Shown piece by piece: positions 3,537 through 24,789 of a stretch of 64,000 bases of DNA. Position 1 is the first letter of the stretch, and each line of letters starts with the position of its first letter. Both the position numbers and the translations under genes were made by a program. This DNA comes from Pseudoxanthomonas daejeonensis (GTDB lineage Bacteria > Pseudomonadota > Gammaproteobacteria > Xanthomonadales > Xanthomonadaceae). The DNA is taken from positions 1 through 64,000 of the forward strand of contig NZ_PDWN01000012.1 in NCBI RefSeq assembly GCF_010093205.1, written 5' to 3'. The notes under the pieces are model-generated. The model was not told the DNA's origin and did no database searches. It was given only the letters and a program-made list of their open reading frames with translations.

Positions 3537-4468
3537 GCCACGGCGCGCCACAGCGACAGGCGACCGCGTTCTCGCCGGCGTCGGTCGGCAATGTCGCGGT
3601 CGGTTTCGACATCCTCGGCCATCCGCTCGCCGGTGTGGGCGACACGGTCACCGCGCGTCGCATCGATGGCGGGGAGATCCGCATCGCCGCGATCCGCGGC
3701 GCACCATTCCCGCTGCCGCTGGAAGCCGCGCGCAATACCGCCGGCGCGGCGCTGCTGGCGATGCGCGAAGCGCTGGCGTTGCCGTTCGGCTTCGAGATCG
3801 AGATCGACAAGGGCATCGCGTTGGGCTCGGGCATGGGCGGCTCGGCTGCGTCCTGCGTCGCCGCGCTGGTGGCGGCCAATGCGCTGCTCGACACGCCCTT
3901 GCCGCGGCAGGCGCTGTATCCGTTCGCGCTGGCCGGCGAGGCGGTGGCCAGCGGCGGCCGCCATGGCGACAACCTGGGGCCGATGCTGCTGGGCGGACTG
4001 GTACTGGCCACGGCCGACCGGCTGGTGCGGATCCCGGTACCGGAGCACTGGCACAGCCTGCTGGTGCACCCGGAGGCGGTACTGGAAACGCGCCGCGCGC
4101 GCGAGGCCCTGGCGGGCAGCTACGAACTGAAGGACTTCGTCGAGCAGAGTGCGAACCTGGCGCTGGTCCTGGCGGGGTGCCATGCCGGCGATGCCACGCT
4201 GGTGCGCGCCGGCCTGCGCGATGTACTGGTCGAACCGCGGCGCGCGCCATTGATCGCCGGATTCGATGCGGCCAAGGCGGCAGCGCTTGATGCCGGGGCG
4301 ATGGGCGCGAGCATTTCCGGCGCGGGGCCGAGCGTGTTCGCATGGTTCGAGTCGCGCGAGCGTGCCGAGGCCGCCGCGCCGGCGGTGCAGGCAGCGTTCG
4401 CCGCGGCGGGACTGGAGAGCCAGTCCTGGGTGTCGGCGATCGACAGTCCGGGCGCAGTGTTGCGGTAA
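3533..4468 (+). CDS. thrB: Homoserine kinase
   Basis: A 311-residue GHMP-family kinase that phosphorylates homoserine with ATP. The glycine-rich phosphate-binding motif [10 protein letters not shown] lies at residues 98-107, and the N-terminal [11 protein letters not shown] motif is typical of ThrB. It starts at a GTG that overlaps the thrA stop in the sequence GTGA, so it is probably translated by reinitiation. It lies between thrA and thrC in the usual order. Confidence 0.96.
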
Positions 4469-18354: not shown

Positions 18355-19113
18355 TTACTGCACGGTCCAGCCGCCATCCAGGACCAGGGTCTGCCCGGTC
18401 ATGTTGCGCGCTGCGGAGGAGGCCAGGAAGGCGGTGGTGCCGGCGAGTTCATCCATTTCGATGAACACGCCCTTGGGCATCGGCTTGAGCATGACCTGGC
18501 TGACCACGTCGGCCTCGGAGATGCCGCGGGTGCGCGCCTGGTCGGCGATCTGCCTGTCGACCAGCGGGGTTTTCACGTAGCTCGGGCAGATCGTGTTGAT
18601 GGTGATGTCGGTGTCGGCGGTCTCCAGCGCGACCACCTTGGAGAATCCGACCAGGCCATGCTTGGCGGCCACGTAGGCGCTCTTGTACGGACTGGCGACC
18701 AGCGCGTGGATGCTGCCGATGTTGATGATCCGACCGAAGCCGCGCTCGCGCATGCCCGGCAGCACCGCGCGGGTCAGTCGCGCCACGCCGACCAGCATCA
18801 CCTGGACCAGGAAGTCCCACTTGGCCAGCGGGAAGTCTTCCAGCGGCGAGACGTGCTGCAGGCCTGCGTTGTTGACCAGCACGTCGACCGGGCGCGAGAT
18901 CGCGGCCAGCGCGGCGGCGACGCTGTCGTCGGAAGTCACGTCCAGCGCGACCGCTTCGGCCGAACCGCCCTGGCCGCGGATGTCGGTGGCGACCGCTTCG
19001 GCGCCCTCCAGCGACAGGTCGCTGACGATGACGTGGTCGCCGGCCTTGGCCAGTGCATGGGCGATGCCGGCACCGATGCCGCTGGCCGCGCCGGTGATGA
19101 GGATGCTGCGCAT
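18355..19113 (-). CDS. bdhA: 3-hydroxybutyrate dehydrogenase (SDR family)
   Basis: A 252-residue short-chain dehydrogenase with the NAD-binding motif TGAASGIG (7-14), NNAG (81-84), S134, and catalytic Y147 and K151. Sequences such as LVNNAGLQHVSPLEDFP and PSYVKTPLVDRQIADQA are characteristic of D-3-hydroxybutyrate dehydrogenase, which oxidises 3-hydroxybutyrate to acetoacetate. It is divergent from the 3-hydroxybutyrate-oligomer hydrolase across about 150 nt and is followed by the LuxR-type regulator. Together with phaE-phaC nearby this supports PHB turnover. Confidence 0.94.
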   Translation of the reverse strand: MRSILITGAASGIGAGIAHALAKAGDHVIVSDLSLEGAEAVATDIRGQGGSAEAVALDVTSDDSVAAALAAISRPVDVLVNNAGLQHVSPLEDFPLAKWDFLVQVMLVGVARLTRAVLPGMRERGFGRIINIGSIHALVASPYKSAYVAAKHGLVGFSKVVALETADTDITINTICPSYVKTPLVDRQIADQARTRGISEADVVSQVMLKPMPKGVFIEMDELAGTTAFLASSAARNMTGQTLVLDGGWTVQ

Positions 19114-19262
19114 GGGGGTCCGGGTCTCTGCAAGTCGCCTTCGGCCAGCTTATCAAGCCATGCCGGCACGGGCGTGGTACCAAAGTACGATGACGCTGCG
19201 CGGCCGGCGCCGGTAGCGTGCGAGCATCCCTCATGCCGGCCCAGGCCATGCCCCGTCCTGAC

Positions 19263-21119
19263 ATGCACCGACTGAAGTTCCCGTTGCTCCTGCCCGCTGT
19301 TTGCCTGTTGGGTGCCGGCCTGCTCGGCGCCTGCGCGGGTACCCCGAATCGCGAACGCACCGGATACGAGCCGTCCGCCATGATCCAACCGCAGCGCGTC
19401 ACCGAGCACCGCGGCAGCGATGACCTGCTGACCGCCGGCCTGGGCCTGGATGGCCTTCGCGCGATGGCACCCCCGGCCTTCGCCGATGCCGCCAACCCGG
19501 ATGCGGCGGAGCTGCGCCGGCGCGCGATCTGGAGCAACTGGCGGGGCATCGCCGACCTGTCGCCCACCGGCGGCTACGGCACGGTGTACGGCAGCGTCGT
19601 CGCGGTTCCGGGGCGCGAGTACTCGGCGCTGGCCACGGTGCCCGGTGCGAAGCAGCCGCACCGCGTGCTGGTGCAGGTGCCGGACGACTTCGACCAGAAG
19701 CGACGCTGCGTGGTGGTCGCGCCGGCCTCGGGCTCGCGCGGCGTCTACGGCGCGATCGCCGTGGCCGGCCCGTGGGCTTTGCCGAAGGGCTGCGCGGTGG
19801 CCTACACCGACAAGGGCGCCGGCAGCGACTACGTCGACCTGGACGCCGGCATCGGCGTGCGCCTGGATGGCACGCCCGGGCGGATCGGCGAAGCCACCGA
19901 CCTGGCGTTCGTACCGGAGATTCCGGCCGGCGCAACGGGCGTGGCGTTCAAGCACGCCCATTCGCAGGACAACCCGGAGGCCGACTGGGGCCGGCACGTG
20001 AAGCAGGCGGCGGAATTCGCGCTGTCGGCGCTCGGCCAGGCGTTCCCGCAGTCGGCACCGTTCACCTTCGACAACACCCGCGTCATCGCGGTCGGCATTT
20101 CCAACGGCGGCGGCGCGGTGCTGCGCGCGGCCGAACTGGAGGGCGACTGGCTGGACGCGGTCGTGGCCGGCGAGCCGAACGTGTTCGTCGAAGGCCACGG
20201 CGGCCGGCCGCTGTACGACTTCGGCACCGAAGCCGCACTGCTGATGCCCTGCGCGCTGCTGCACCTGCCGGCCGATGCGCTGCCGCAGCCGCCGCTGCGT
20301 GCCCAGGTCGAACCGCTGTGGAAGCTGCGGTGCGCCACGCTGCAGGCCGGTGGCCTCATCGAAGGTGCCGACAGCATCGCGCAGGCGCGCTCGGCCTACG
20401 AACGCATGCGTGCGACGGGCTGGACCGACGAGGCCTTGCAGGCGGGCGCGCTCAGCGTGGGCTTCGACCTGTGGCGCTCGGTCGCCGTCACCTACGCCTC
20501 GGCGTACGGCCGCCACGGCATCGGCGCGCATCCGTGCGGTTTCGCCTTCGCGGCGCAGAACCCGGACTTCAGTCCACGCTCGGCGACCGCGGCCGAACGT
20601 GGCACGTGGTGGTCCGATGCGGCCGGCATCCCGCCGGGCAATGGGGTCGGCATCCTCGACGCGAAACTTGCGCCACCGGATTTCACCTTGGCCGGCGCGC
20701 AGTGCCTGCGTGACCTCTACACCGGGAAGGGCGAGCCCGCCAACGGCGTGCGCGCGGGCATCGCCGCCACGCGTGCGTCGATGCCGCGCGCCGGCCTGCC
20801 GGTGCTGGTCGTGCACGGTACCGACGACGGACTGGTGCCGCCGGTGTTCACCAGCGCGCCTTACGTGGCCGCCGCGCGCGAGGCCGGTCGCACGCAGGTG
20901 GGCTACTGGCAGGTGCGCAACGGCGAGCACTTCGACGCCTTCCTTGCGCTGCCGGCCTACGGCGCGCGCTACGCGCCGATGCTGCCCTACATGTACGCCG
21001 CGCTGGACCGGGTGAGCGCGCACCTGGACGGGCAGGGCGCGTTGCCGGCGGATGCGGTGATCCAGGCCCGCGGCCGTGGCGCGGGCGCGGTGGACGCGGC
21101 GCAGCTGCCGATGCCGTAA
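19263..21119 (+). CDS. D-(-)-3-hydroxybutyrate oligomer hydrolase, lipoprotein
   Basis: A 618-residue protein of the 3HBOH family (about 600-700 residues), which cleaves 3-hydroxybutyrate oligomers to monomers. A serine-hydrolase nucleophile motif GISNGGG centres on S280; PASGSRGVYG and LVVHGTDDGLVPP (Asp-bearing) also fit an alpha/beta hydrolase. The N-terminus is a lipoprotein signal with LGAC (C24). In-frame ATGs at 19233, 19248 and 19263 all precede the signal and no Shine-Dalgarno decides between them. Its product feeds BdhA, encoded divergently next to it. Confidence 0.9.
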   Translation: MHRLKFPLLLPAVCLLGAGLLGACAGTPNRERTGYEPSAMIQPQRVTEHRGSDDLLTAGLGLDGLRAMAPPAFADAANPDAAELRRRAIWSNWRGIADLSPTGGYGTVYGSVVAVPGREYSALATVPGAKQPHRVLVQVPDDFDQKRRCVVVAPASGSRGVYGAIAVAGPWALPKGCAVAYTDKGAGSDYVDLDAGIGVRLDGTPGRIGEATDLAFVPEIPAGATGVAFKHAHSQDNPEADWGRHVKQAAEFALSALGQAFPQSAPFTFDNTRVIAVGISNGGGAVLRAAELEGDWLDAVVAGEPNVFVEGHGGRPLYDFGTEAALLMPCALLHLPADALPQPPLRAQVEPLWKLRCATLQAGGLIEGADSIAQARSAYERMRATGWTDEALQAGALSVGFDLWRSVAVTYASAYGRHGIGAHPCGFAFAAQNPDFSPRSATAAERGTWWSDAAGIPPGNGVGILDAKLAPPDFTLAGAQCLRDLYTGKGEPANGVRAGIAATRASMPRAGLPVLVVHGTDDGLVPPVFTSAPYVAAAREAGRTQVGYWQVRNGEHFDAFLALPAYGARYAPMLPYMYAALDRVSAHLDGQGALPADAVIQARGRGAGAVDAAQLPMP

Positions 21120-22004: not shown

Positions 22005-22063
22005 ACGGCAGGCGCGCCGCTGTCACCGGACGGCGCTAGAATCCTTCACGTACGGGAGGATTC

Positions 22064-23713
22064 ATGGCCAACGCACCCTTCGCGCAGTTTCCGGGCGACT
22101 TCGAATCGCTGGCGCGGCAGTACTGGAATACCTGGAACGAGCTGCTCGGTCGCGGCGGGATGACCGACGGTTTTGGTCTGGGCGGTGGCCTCGGTGGCCT
22201 CGGTGGCCTGGGCGGGCTCGGCGGCCTGGGTGGCCTGCCACCGGGCCTGGGCGGCATGGGCATGGGGACCGGCACCTACGACTGGTACCAGCGCATGCAG
22301 CGCCTGGCTGCCGACTTCAGTGGCGGCGGCAATGCGTCCGATGTCGCCCGCGCCTGGCGCGAGATGCTGGGCGGGCAGGGGGGAGATCCCTTCGCCGGCC
22401 TGCTGCGTTCGATGCACGGCAACCTCTCCGGCGGTGAATGGCTGGAGCAGATGCGCCCGATGCTGGACATGCTGTTGCGGCCGCTGCGCCAGCAGGGTGC
22501 CGAGTGGCTGCAACGTCCGGCCTTTGGTCCGGCCCGCGAACACCAGGAACGGCTGCAGGCCCTGGCGCTGGCCTGGCAGGAATGGGAGCAGCGCAACGAG
22601 GCCTTCAATGCCGTGCTCGCGCAGGCGACGCAAGGTGCCTACGAGCGCTTCGAACGGATGCTCGGAGAGCGCGATGCGCCGGGCAAGCGCCTGGAATCGG
22701 CGCGCGCGTTGTTCGACCTGTGGATCGACGCGGCCGAGGAGGCCTGGGCCGAGATCGCGCTGTCGGACGAGTATCGCCACGCCTACGCCGGGATGACCAA
22801 CGCGCTGATGCGGCTGCGGCTGGGCCTGCAGCGCGAGGTCGAACAGTTCGGTTCGATGCTGGGCATGCCGGGACGCGGCGAAGTGGATGCGCTGCACCGC
22901 AAGGTCGCCGACCTGGAGCGCGCACTGCACGTGGCGCGGCGCGGCGCAACGGCACAGCGCCAGGCGCCGGCTGCGCCAAGGGCTCGCCCTGCGGCGGTGG
23001 CCCCGGCGCCCTCGCCGGAAGTCGCGGAGGCGGCGGTGGCGCCGGCAGTGCCGAAGAAGATGAAGGCGGTGTCGCGCAAGCGCGCCAGCAAGAAGACGCC
23101 CGGCAAGCCGAAGACCCAGACGGTGCGCGCGGCGAAGCGGACCGCGGCGGCCCGGCCTGCCGTAGCGGTGCGCAAGAAGGCACCGCGTCGCGCCACCCGT
23201 GCCACGGCCGCGACTGCGTCGGTGAAGGCGGCAGTGACGAAGCCCGCTGCGGCGAAGACCGCAGGCAAGGCCGCGATCGGGAAATCGAAATCCATGGCAT
23301 CACGCCCTGCGACGAAGGTCGTGCCGCCTCCCGCGCACGATACGCGGATGAAGCCGAAAGCCGTCACGCGCACGCCGGCGGCCGCCGCGCCGGTGTCGGC
23401 TTCCAGCCGCAAGGCCGTGGTCGCGCCCAGGGCAGGGCTGGCCACCGCGACCACGAAACAGGTCGCGAGCAAGCCAGCGCGTACCCCCCAGGCTTCAGCG
23501 GCCAGCGGCCGCAAGGCAAAGACGGTCCCCGCCAGCGGGACGCGCGCGCCGGCCAGGTCCGTCGACCTCGCGCCGACCACGGCCAAGGTCGTGTCGATGA
23601 AGGACTGGGTCAGCCGCAACATGGCCGCGGCGGCGCCTGATGCCACCATCGACACCACCGGCCGCAAGCCCGGCCGCAAGCCGGGCGGCAAGCGGGGAGG
23701 ACGCGGTCGATGA
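22064..23713 (+). CDS. phaE: PHA synthase subunit PhaE with a long histone-H1-like tail
   Basis: A 549-residue protein. Residues 1-300 match the class III PHA synthase partner PhaE: helical, Trp-rich, with LSGGEWLEQMRPMLD and DLWIDAAEEAWAEIA, and a closing heptad helix about 275-293. A Gly-Gly-Leu repeat occupies residues 39-64. Residues 300-549 are an unusual tail rich in Ala, Lys, Arg, Pro and Thr (KKMKAVSRKRASKK, VTKPAAAKTAGKAA), like histone H1 or the DNA-binding half of the phasin PhaF. It ends in a short less biased segment (VVSMKDWVSRNM) and the AT-hook-like GRKPGRKPGGKRGGRGR. GGGAGGA precedes the ATG, and TAGAAT at 22037-22042 could be a -10. It overlaps phaC by 4 nt. Confidence 0.9.
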   Translation: MANAPFAQFPGDFESLARQYWNTWNELLGRGGMTDGFGLGGGLGGLGGLGGLGGLGGLPPGLGGMGMGTGTYDWYQRMQRLAADFSGGGNASDVARAWREMLGGQGGDPFAGLLRSMHGNLSGGEWLEQMRPMLDMLLRPLRQQGAEWLQRPAFGPAREHQERLQALALAWQEWEQRNEAFNAVLAQATQGAYERFERMLGERDAPGKRLESARALFDLWIDAAEEAWAEIALSDEYRHAYAGMTNALMRLRLGLQREVEQFGSMLGMPGRGEVDALHRKVADLERALHVARRGATAQRQAPAAPRARPAAVAPAPSPEVAEAAVAPAVPKKMKAVSRKRASKKTPGKPKTQTVRAAKRTAAARPAVAVRKKAPRRATRATAATASVKAAVTKPAAAKTAGKAAIGKSKSMASRPATKVVPPPAHDTRMKPKAVTRTPAAAAPVSASSRKAVVAPRAGLATATTKQVASKPARTPQASAASGRKAKTVPASGTRAPARSVDLAPTTAKVVSMKDWVSRNMAAAAPDATIDTTGRKPGRKPGGKRGGRGR

Positions 23714-24789
23714 AAGCCGGATCGATGGGCCCGCTGCAGTTCAACCCGCTGGACCTGGCGCAGGAAGCCTGGGAGTTCCAGAAGCACCTGGCCGATGGCG
23801 CGCGCGTGCTCGGCCAGGTCGAGGATGTCGAGTACGGCGCCACCGCGCGCGAGGAAGTGTGGCGCGACGGCAAGACCGTGCTGTACCGCTTCGTGGGCGA
23901 GACGCCCGCGAAAGGGCCCCCGCTGCTGATCGTCTACGCACTGGTCAACCGCCCGTACATGGTCGACCTGCAGCACGACCGCTCGCTGGTGAAGGGGCTG
24001 CTCGCGCTGGGCCTGGACGTGTACGTGATCGACTGGGGCTACCCGGACCGGTCGGATCGTTACCTGACCCTGGACGACTACATCAACCGCTACATCGACG
24101 GCGCCATCGACCACCTGGTCGAGTCCCGCGGCGGGCCGGTCAACCTGCTCGGCGTGTGCCAGGGCGGTTCGTTCTCGCTGTGCTACGCGTCGCTGCATCC
24201 GGAGAAGGTGCGCAACCTGGTCACGATGGTGACCCCGGTCGACTTCCAGACCCCGGACAACATGCTCTCCAGCTGGGTGCGCGAACTGGACGTGGACCTG
24301 TTCGTCGATGCGATGGGGAATGTCCCTGCCGACCTGATGAATGCCAGCTACCTGATGCTCAAGCCGTTCCGGCTGAACCTGCAGAAGTACGTGGGCCTGG
24401 TCGACATCCTCGACAACCCGAAGGCGGTCGAGGACTTCCTGCGCATGGAGAAATGGATCTTCGACTCGCCCGACCAGGCCGGCGAAGCGTTCCGCGACTT
24501 CATCAAGCAGTTCTACCAGGGCAACGCCTTCGTCCAGGGCACCGCGAACATCGGCGGGAACAAGGTGGACCTGGGTTTCGTCGACATGCCGGTGCTCAAC
24601 ATCTATGCCGAGCAGGACCACCTGGTGCCGCCGGACGCCTCGCGCGCGCTGGCCGGGCTGGTCGGTACCGCCGACTACACCGAACTGGGCTTCAAGGGCG
24701 GCCACATCGGCATCTACGTCTCCAGCCGGGCACAGCGCGAAGTACCCGCGGCGATCCATCGCTGGCTGGCGGCGAGGCAGGGTGCCTGA
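23710..24789 (+). CDS. phaC: Class III PHA synthase catalytic subunit
   Basis: A 359-residue alpha/beta-hydrolase-fold polymerase joining 3-hydroxyacyl-CoA units into polyhydroxyalkanoate on the granule. The lipase-like box is GVCQGG with nucleophile C150. D303 (YAEQDHLVPP) and H332 (KGGHIGIY) complete the triad at the spacing of Allochromatium PhaC (C149/D302/H331). The length of about 360 marks the class III form that works with PhaE. Its ATG overlaps the phaE stop (ATGA), so the two subunits are translationally coupled. Confidence 0.96.
   Translation: MKAGSMGPLQFNPLDLAQEAWEFQKHLADGARVLGQVEDVEYGATAREEVWRDGKTVLYRFVGETPAKGPPLLIVYALVNRPYMVDLQHDRSLVKGLLALGLDVYVIDWGYPDRSDRYLTLDDYINRYIDGAIDHLVESRGGPVNLLGVCQGGSFSLCYASLHPEKVRNLVTMVTPVDFQTPDNMLSSWVRELDVDLFVDAMGNVPADLMNASYLMLKPFRLNLQKYVGLVDILDNPKAVEDFLRMEKWIFDSPDQAGEAFRDFIKQFYQGNAFVQGTANIGGNKVDLGFVDMPVLNIYAEQDHLVPPDASRALAGLVGTADYTELGFKGGHIGIYVSSRAQREVPAAIHRWLAARQGA

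Follow-up and report, generated by a model that had tools for sequence, protein, structure and literature searches.

The window analysed here is the whole 64,000-nucleotide stretch at positions 1 to 64,000 of contig NZ_PDWN01000012.1 from Pseudoxanthomonas daejeonensis (assembly GCF_010093205.1). It carries phaE, the gene for a subunit of class III polyhydroxyalkanoate (PHA) synthase, whose product ends in a long and strongly basic tail. This tail is the subject of our report. The gene, its parts and the adjoining phaC gene are arranged as follows.

22064..23713, forward strand: phaE, class III PHA synthase subunit of 549 amino acids (aa), with an ATG start (PF09712, E 6.9e-49)
22064..22930, forward strand: PhaE core, residues 1-289 (profile boundary; helical in the AlphaFold model)
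22175..22261, forward strand: Gly/Leu-rich low-complexity insert (GGLGGLGGLGG...), residues ~38-66 of the core (sequence; low predicted local distance difference test score, pLDDT, at 31-59)
22799..22939, forward strand: terminal coiled-coil module like the zipper of PhaF-type phasins, residues 246-292 (weak TIGR01837 match; profile-profile comparison)
22931..23710, forward strand: basic tail, predicted to be disordered, residues 290-549, 260 aa, net charge +52 (composition, profile boundary, AlphaFold)
23588..23623, forward strand: conserved tail motif VVSMKDWVSRNM, residues 509-520, with a predicted helix at 512-520 (alignment; AlphaFold)
23660..23710, forward strand: basic Gly/Arg-rich C-terminus GRKPGRKPGGKRGGRGR, residues 533-549 (sequence comparison)
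23710..24789, forward strand: phaC, class III PHA synthase catalytic subunit (TIGR01836, E 9.4e-159)

The Pfam profile PF09712 (PHA_synth_III_E) covers residues 123-289 with 167.2 bits against a cut-off of 25.7, and phaC, whose start overlaps the phaE stop (ATGA at 23710), scores 528 bits with TIGR01836 against 365.3. Because these two matches are clear, we filed the gene as phaE despite a narrow miss of the TIGR01834 cut-off (151.0 bits vs 154.95). The Gly/Leu insert, which interrupts the N-terminal half of the protein, may be the cause of that near miss.

The tail consists of 69 Ala (26.5%), 30 Lys (11.5%), 29 Arg (11.2%) and 29 Pro (11.2%), with 7 acidic residues. It is thus long, Lys/Ala/Pro-rich and poor in acidic residues, and is predicted to be disordered, as is typical of tails like that of histone H1. 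In the AlphaFold model, which was built on 37 sequences, the core is helical, with ten-residue blocks at pLDDT 80-94 over residues 161-300. Beyond residue 299 no fold was predicted except the helix at 512-520, which is the only helix that the model places in the tail. The first-pass annotation had described a normal PhaE up to about residue 300, followed by some 250 residues of Lys/Ala/Pro-rich sequence like that of H1 and PhaF. The profile boundary near 290 and the tail described above bear out both statements, and a tailed PhaE is confirmed.

The junction between core and tail resembles that of a phasin. TIGR01837 matched the window PhaE weakly and at residues 246-292 only (E 0.0033; 17.5 bits, cut-off 94.7), and a Pfam profile search gave no match of the protein to the PF05597 phasin domain at E <= 1. 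In a single profile-profile comparison the end of the PhaE core aligned with the phasin zipper over 40 columns (probability 87, E 4e-6). Since these two segments align, PhaE and PhaF-type phasins appear to carry their tails on a similar coiled coil. Searches of the PDB with PhaE gave no structural neighbour at E <= 0.001, and by sequence the best E was 3.9.

We then asked how common such a stretch is in the genome itself. A 484-kb sample of the genome yielded 2710 open reading frames (ORFs) of 90 codons or more, a count that takes in spurious ones, and three of these contained a 60-residue stretch with at least 9 Lys, at least 12 Ala and a net charge of at least +12. PhaE was the strongest. 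The other two resemble, by eye, ribosomal protein L35 and an HU-like protein, and both types are nucleic-acid binders. The HU-like protein (locus L341, about 3632-4300, reverse strand) has a Lys/Ala-rich N-terminal extension, KKPAAKKAAPKAAKAAPKK. Many relatives have further open frames across the tail DNA, on either strand, which the high GC content would lead one to expect; only the phaE frame runs through the entire tail in all 13 relatives examined.

To see how far the tail extends beyond this species, PhaE was compared across relatives. Of 297 genomes from the family, 265 contained PF09712, as did all 17 from the window genus. The proteins were read from genomes chosen either as best matches or to represent most genera at least once, and so are not a random draw. 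The set used for the tree held 125 family genomes, 123 of them with a complete tail and two with tails cut by contig ends. The 123 complete tails, from 51 genera, were 34-285 aa long (median 94) with net charges of +3 to +52 (median +19), and 122 of them were basic (net at least +6). Tails of at least 180 aa occurred in 18 proteins: 13 of the window genus, four of a second Pseudoxanthomonas-like genus (g16) and one of genus g35. Of the 17 genomes of the window genus, three were unusable (two tails cut, one gene frameshifted); in the other 14 the length comparison that had been proposed at the outset showed the long tail to recur, with 13 tails of 182-285 aa. The frameshifted gene (G282, loci L047/L048), dropped before the tree was built, is broken inside the core and not in the tail; with an assembly only 57% complete, the break is probably an assembly error. 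By comparison with named relatives, the window genus groups with Pseudoxanthomonas kaohsiungensis, P. suwonensis and P. broegbernensis.

Outside the family, 47 genomes of the class matched PF09712, and a tail of net charge at least +6 was found in 20 of the 30 PhaE read (21 by a hand count with an earlier core boundary). In one genome from a different family of the class (L317, 438-1739, reverse strand), PhaE has a helix-hairpin-helix domain instead of the basic tail (PF14520, 31.1 bits vs a cut-off of 27), and it was the only such protein among those read. In two further loci of one family of the class (L320 and L321), PhaE ends in a common GMIELKF behind a Lys-rich tail. From this survey the basic tail appears to be common in the class, less so elsewhere, and enlarged in the window genus. 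Because nearly all family PhaE and 20 of the 30 elsewhere in the class possess it, the tail of the window PhaE looks like an expansion, not the unusual fusion that had been suggested earlier. An origin by frameshift or sequencing error is likewise rejected, as frame and motif are intact in all 13 of the long tails found in the genus.

The most conserved element lies near the tip. A motif with the consensus VVS[MI]KDWV[AS]R[NY] and rare variants is present in the tails of 34 distinct PhaE, its eighth residue 13-33 residues before the end of the protein. The residues at positions 2, 3, 6, 7 and 8 never vary; synonymous codon changes occur at each of these positions except that of Trp, which has a single codon. 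In the tree set the motif was found in 13 of the 14 complete PhaE of the window genus, in all 15 of g16 and nowhere else; P. mexicana and P. japonensis carry the g16 type. A degenerate DNA pattern for VS[MI]KDWV matched 24 of 247 sampled family genomes, once in each. Of these matches 23 fall within ORFs that also encode a PhaE core (12 of 13 genomes of the window genus and 11 of 12 of g16), and the remaining one lies in a 122-codon frame without such a core. The reversed pattern used as a control gave no match among the genomes listed. In the P. daejeonensis genome, a search with coding DNA for KDWV found three places besides PhaE, all lacking the full motif. We also considered an amphipathic helix, which was not supported, as the hydrophobic moment of the motif ranked 66 among 249 windows.

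Other tail ends are conserved within other groups. Among 80 loci of named relatives, a short NGF[SA]S-type end motif occurred in six (Luteimonas) and an AI..MPEP-type motif in another six, several of which are Lysobacter-type. In the Luteimonas tails (L165, L188, L189, L193, L195 and L221) the former is part of an APTNGFSSxIPxPxAPLP-like motif near the end. The window PhaE itself closes with GRKPGRKPGG at residues 533-542, followed by a GKRGGRGR-like ending. The core of an AT-hook is RGRP/GRP. The first-pass annotation read GRKPGRKPGG as AT-hook-like, and we reject that identity: the window tail has no RGRP/GRP core, no RGRP occurs in the tails of the genus, and GRKPGRKP was found in none of the other PhaE read. 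It is the GKRGGRGR-like portion that recurs in many PhaE of the window genus.

The tail might serve as a spacer or brush without specificity, or be low-complexity sequence under little constraint that grew by slippage in GC-rich genomes, its charge having no ligand. The wide range of tail lengths across the family fits this idea, as does the divergence of the tail. Its rate of nonsynonymous change (dN) exceeded that of the core in all 26 close pairs listed, and its ratio to the synonymous rate (dN/dS) was 0.20-0.69, below the core value in some pairs and above it in most; these ratios are rough, because low-complexity sequence is hard to align. The kinds of change argue the other way. In eight pairs with 203 single-step nonsynonymous changes in the tail, 36 altered the charge where 68.7 were expected, about half, and four gained or lost an acidic residue where 17.4 were expected, about a quarter (p = 5e-7 and 1e-4; the values are optimistic, since pairs share sequences). 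Charge changes are avoided in the core as well (25 vs 50.2 expected). These counts indicate that selection acts against charge changes in the tail. The spacer idea is further opposed by a Lys content of 11.5% in a GC-rich gene, by the near-invariant 12-residue motif with synonymous change at most positions, and by the rarity of comparable stretches in the genome sample. We therefore consider it improbable.

PHA granule proteins of other bacteria offer several comparisons. PhaF of Pseudomonas putida, as described in passages of PMC3574117, has a coiled-coil zipper followed by a disordered basic tail, and it too works in a granule context; the PhaF-type phasins of the family studied here share with PhaE the similar 40-column module at the tail junction. 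However, PhaF is a phasin and PhaE a synthase subunit, of which only the short segment at the junction resembles TIGR01837. The last 35 aa of PhaF form a random coil without basic residues (same passages), unlike the conserved helix motif of PhaE. PhaM of Cupriavidus necator, according to excerpts of PMC9049629 and PMC3556143, is a synthase accessory protein whose histone-like C-terminus links granule and nucleoid. It shows that an activator of a synthase can bear a DNA-binding tail (PMC9049629, in part). It differs in being a separate activator of a class I synthase with PAKKA motifs (PMC9049629, same excerpts), whereas PhaE is a class III subunit. The window tail contains no PAKKA, a motif seen by eye in certain other family PhaE, for example at locus L118.

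A DNA-binding domain on a granule protein is also known from PhaH of Caulobacter (parts of PMC13052382), where it is of the helix-hairpin-helix type, as in L317, and a domain of this type at the C-terminus of a synthase has already been published for haloarchaeal PhaC (parts of PMC12028471). Both have a helix-hairpin-helix and not a basic tail like that of the window PhaE. AlgP and the C-terminal tail of histone H1 (sections of PMC9239181) share the Lys/Ala/Pro-rich composition, the predicted disorder and the high net charge. The window tail differs from them in having no regular KPAA array (two [KR]P[AV]A matches) and in being attached to a synthase subunit. As has been proposed in print for PhaF and PhaM, the tail could make PhaE a promoter-binding regulator instead of a tether. 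Yet Pfam and NCBIfam profiles detected no sequence-specific DNA-binding domain in the window PhaE, and the sections of the review PMC13052382 that treat such tails link them to nonspecific binding, so that a regulator is very improbable.

No phasin gene lies near phaE in the 64-kb window, as had been noticed before. The idea of granule segregation without a phasin is nevertheless wrong, for two phasin-family genes are present elsewhere in the genome, one matching PF05597/TIGR01837 on contig C31 and one matching PF09361 on contig C22. In the window genus the PhaF-type phasin stops soon after its zipper, with 13-39 further residues of net charge -2 to +6 in every one of the 14 genomes where it was found; among these, the match in G010 is just below the family cut-off and that in G203 contains one stop. 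In the other three genomes of the genus the only phasin-like match was either weak or to PhaE. These tail-less phasins are found at L139 (1502-2404, reverse strand) and its relatives L140-L143 and L250-L258; most phasins read in the family have a Lys/Ala-rich tail. Because the phasin tail of the genus is not basic, PhaE is the only one among PhaC, PhaE and the two phasin-family proteins with a long basic tail. Across 87 genomes in which both proteins were paired, the phasin tail had a net charge of +6 or less in 24, and in all 24 the PhaE tail carried +7 to +52. On a quick, midpoint-rooted tree of PhaE cores and PhaC, in which 44 of 122 inner branches were drawn open, two changes suffice to explain where the motif occurs, and four to explain the basic phasin tail. 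Because of these counts, the phasin tail of the window genus appears likelier to have been lost than to have been absent from the start.

The remaining features at the locus concern expression of phaE and the turnover of polyhydroxybutyrate (PHB); a pssA-like gene also lies upstream of phaE.

22054..22059, forward strand: GGGAGG, resembling a ribosome-binding site, ahead of the phaE ATG (read from sequence)
19218..21119, forward strand: 3-hydroxybutyrate-oligomer hydrolase gene, a PHB mobilisation neighbour (PF10605, E 2.9e-138)
18355..19113, reverse strand: 3-hydroxybutyrate dehydrogenase gene, a PHB mobilisation neighbour (TIGR01963, E 1.7e-107)

On balance we lean towards a tethering role for the tail of the window PhaE: the synthase subunit itself would hold on to the nucleoid, acting like PhaF and PhaM without belonging to either family. 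The long disordered tail would bind the nucleoid nonspecifically, as the tails of PhaF and PhaM do. Both PhaEC and the PHB granule under construction would thereby stay on the chromosome, and granules held in this way would be shared out at division. The conserved helix near the tip may dock on a partner, for which PhaC, a phasin or a nucleoid protein are candidates. Nucleic-acid binding, the tethering role and docking by the tip helix are what we infer from comparisons of sequence. The earlier interpretation as a whole is partly supported: in its favour are the composition like that of H1 and PhaF, the predicted disorder, the zipper-like junction, the selection on charge, the recurrence in relatives and the tail-less phasin of the genus, while the AT-hook, the lack of a phasin and the fusion as an unusual event are not borne out. 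The best indirect argument for tethering is that two unlike modules of DNA-binding type, the basic tail and the helix-hairpin-helix of L317, occupy the same place in PhaE.

The calculated net charges raise the main rival. With the PhaE core at about -8 and PhaC at about -14, both acidic, the tail could be an electrostatic scaffold for these proteins, or for RNA, ribosomes or polyphosphate, and help to gather the synthase into assemblies as granules are initiated. A tail of this kind also occurs on AlgP, a protein of polyphosphate granules (sections of PMC9239181), and the Arg/Gly-rich terminus is not specific for DNA. At equal subunit numbers, however, the charge of the tail exceeds that of core and PhaC combined, tails of the PhaF and PhaM type are described as DNA-binding in the same functional setting (passages of PMC13052382, PMC3574117 and PMC9049629), and the helix-hairpin-helix of L317 stands at the tail position. 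We regard a scaffold as unlikely, albeit less so than a spacer.

Several observations weigh against a tether. The tail could simply neutralise its own complex, as PhaE core and PhaC are acidic. The tip helix was modelled with only moderate confidence (pLDDT 65 for its block, 44 and 40 for the flanking blocks), and four further PhaE with tails of at least 140 aa lack the motif. One PhaE of the window genus (G113) has an 80-aa tail without the motif together with a tail-less phasin. The genus g16 has the motif and both basic tails, its phasin tails carrying +13 to +18 in all 15 genomes in which both proteins were read. Five genera with non-basic phasins (g17, g29, g43, g44 and g53) have unexpanded PhaE tails of only +7 to +26. 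The charges of the two tails were not inversely related, with Spearman coefficients of -0.04 over the 87 genomes and +0.30 over 42 genus means. A general trade-off between the tails is therefore rejected; since the charges show no inverse relation and other genera are unexpanded, a swap of tails fits the window genus and is no general rule. In the rest of the phylum, where 54 genomes of the sample matched and the best 30 were read (four of them in the family or order), only 4 of the other 26 PhaE, from few families, had a tail of at least +6. Finally, the scan for other H1-like proteins covered only 13.6% of the genome.

Among the titles and abstract openings listed for the tail, DNA binding and structure of PhaE, for PHA in Pseudoxanthomonas and for known tethers, none names a DNA-binding PhaE tail, and the passages and table read in a 2025 review of organelle positioning (PMC13052382) name no tether in a synthase subunit. 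The near-invariant tip motif that long-tailed PhaE of the window genus share with those of the neighbouring g16 is a new observation. A bolder proposal is that PhaE is a general granule-nucleoid tether of class III Gammaproteobacteria, by basic tail or, in at least one lineage, helix-hairpin-helix, that in the Pseudoxanthomonas type the function has moved wholly from the phasin to PhaE, and that a new helical tip hooks a partner, so that synthesis starts only at chromosome-bound sites; we put it forward tentatively, as a speculation.

Granule positioning has so far been described for few proteins, namely PhaM, PhaF and PhaH. If the tail is indeed a tether, the synthase of class III producers would itself link the birth of a granule to the chromosome, and its tail would be a simple handle on the number, size and inheritance of granules in bioplastic strains. 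The conserved tip motif provides a sharp entry point to a possible partner of the tail.
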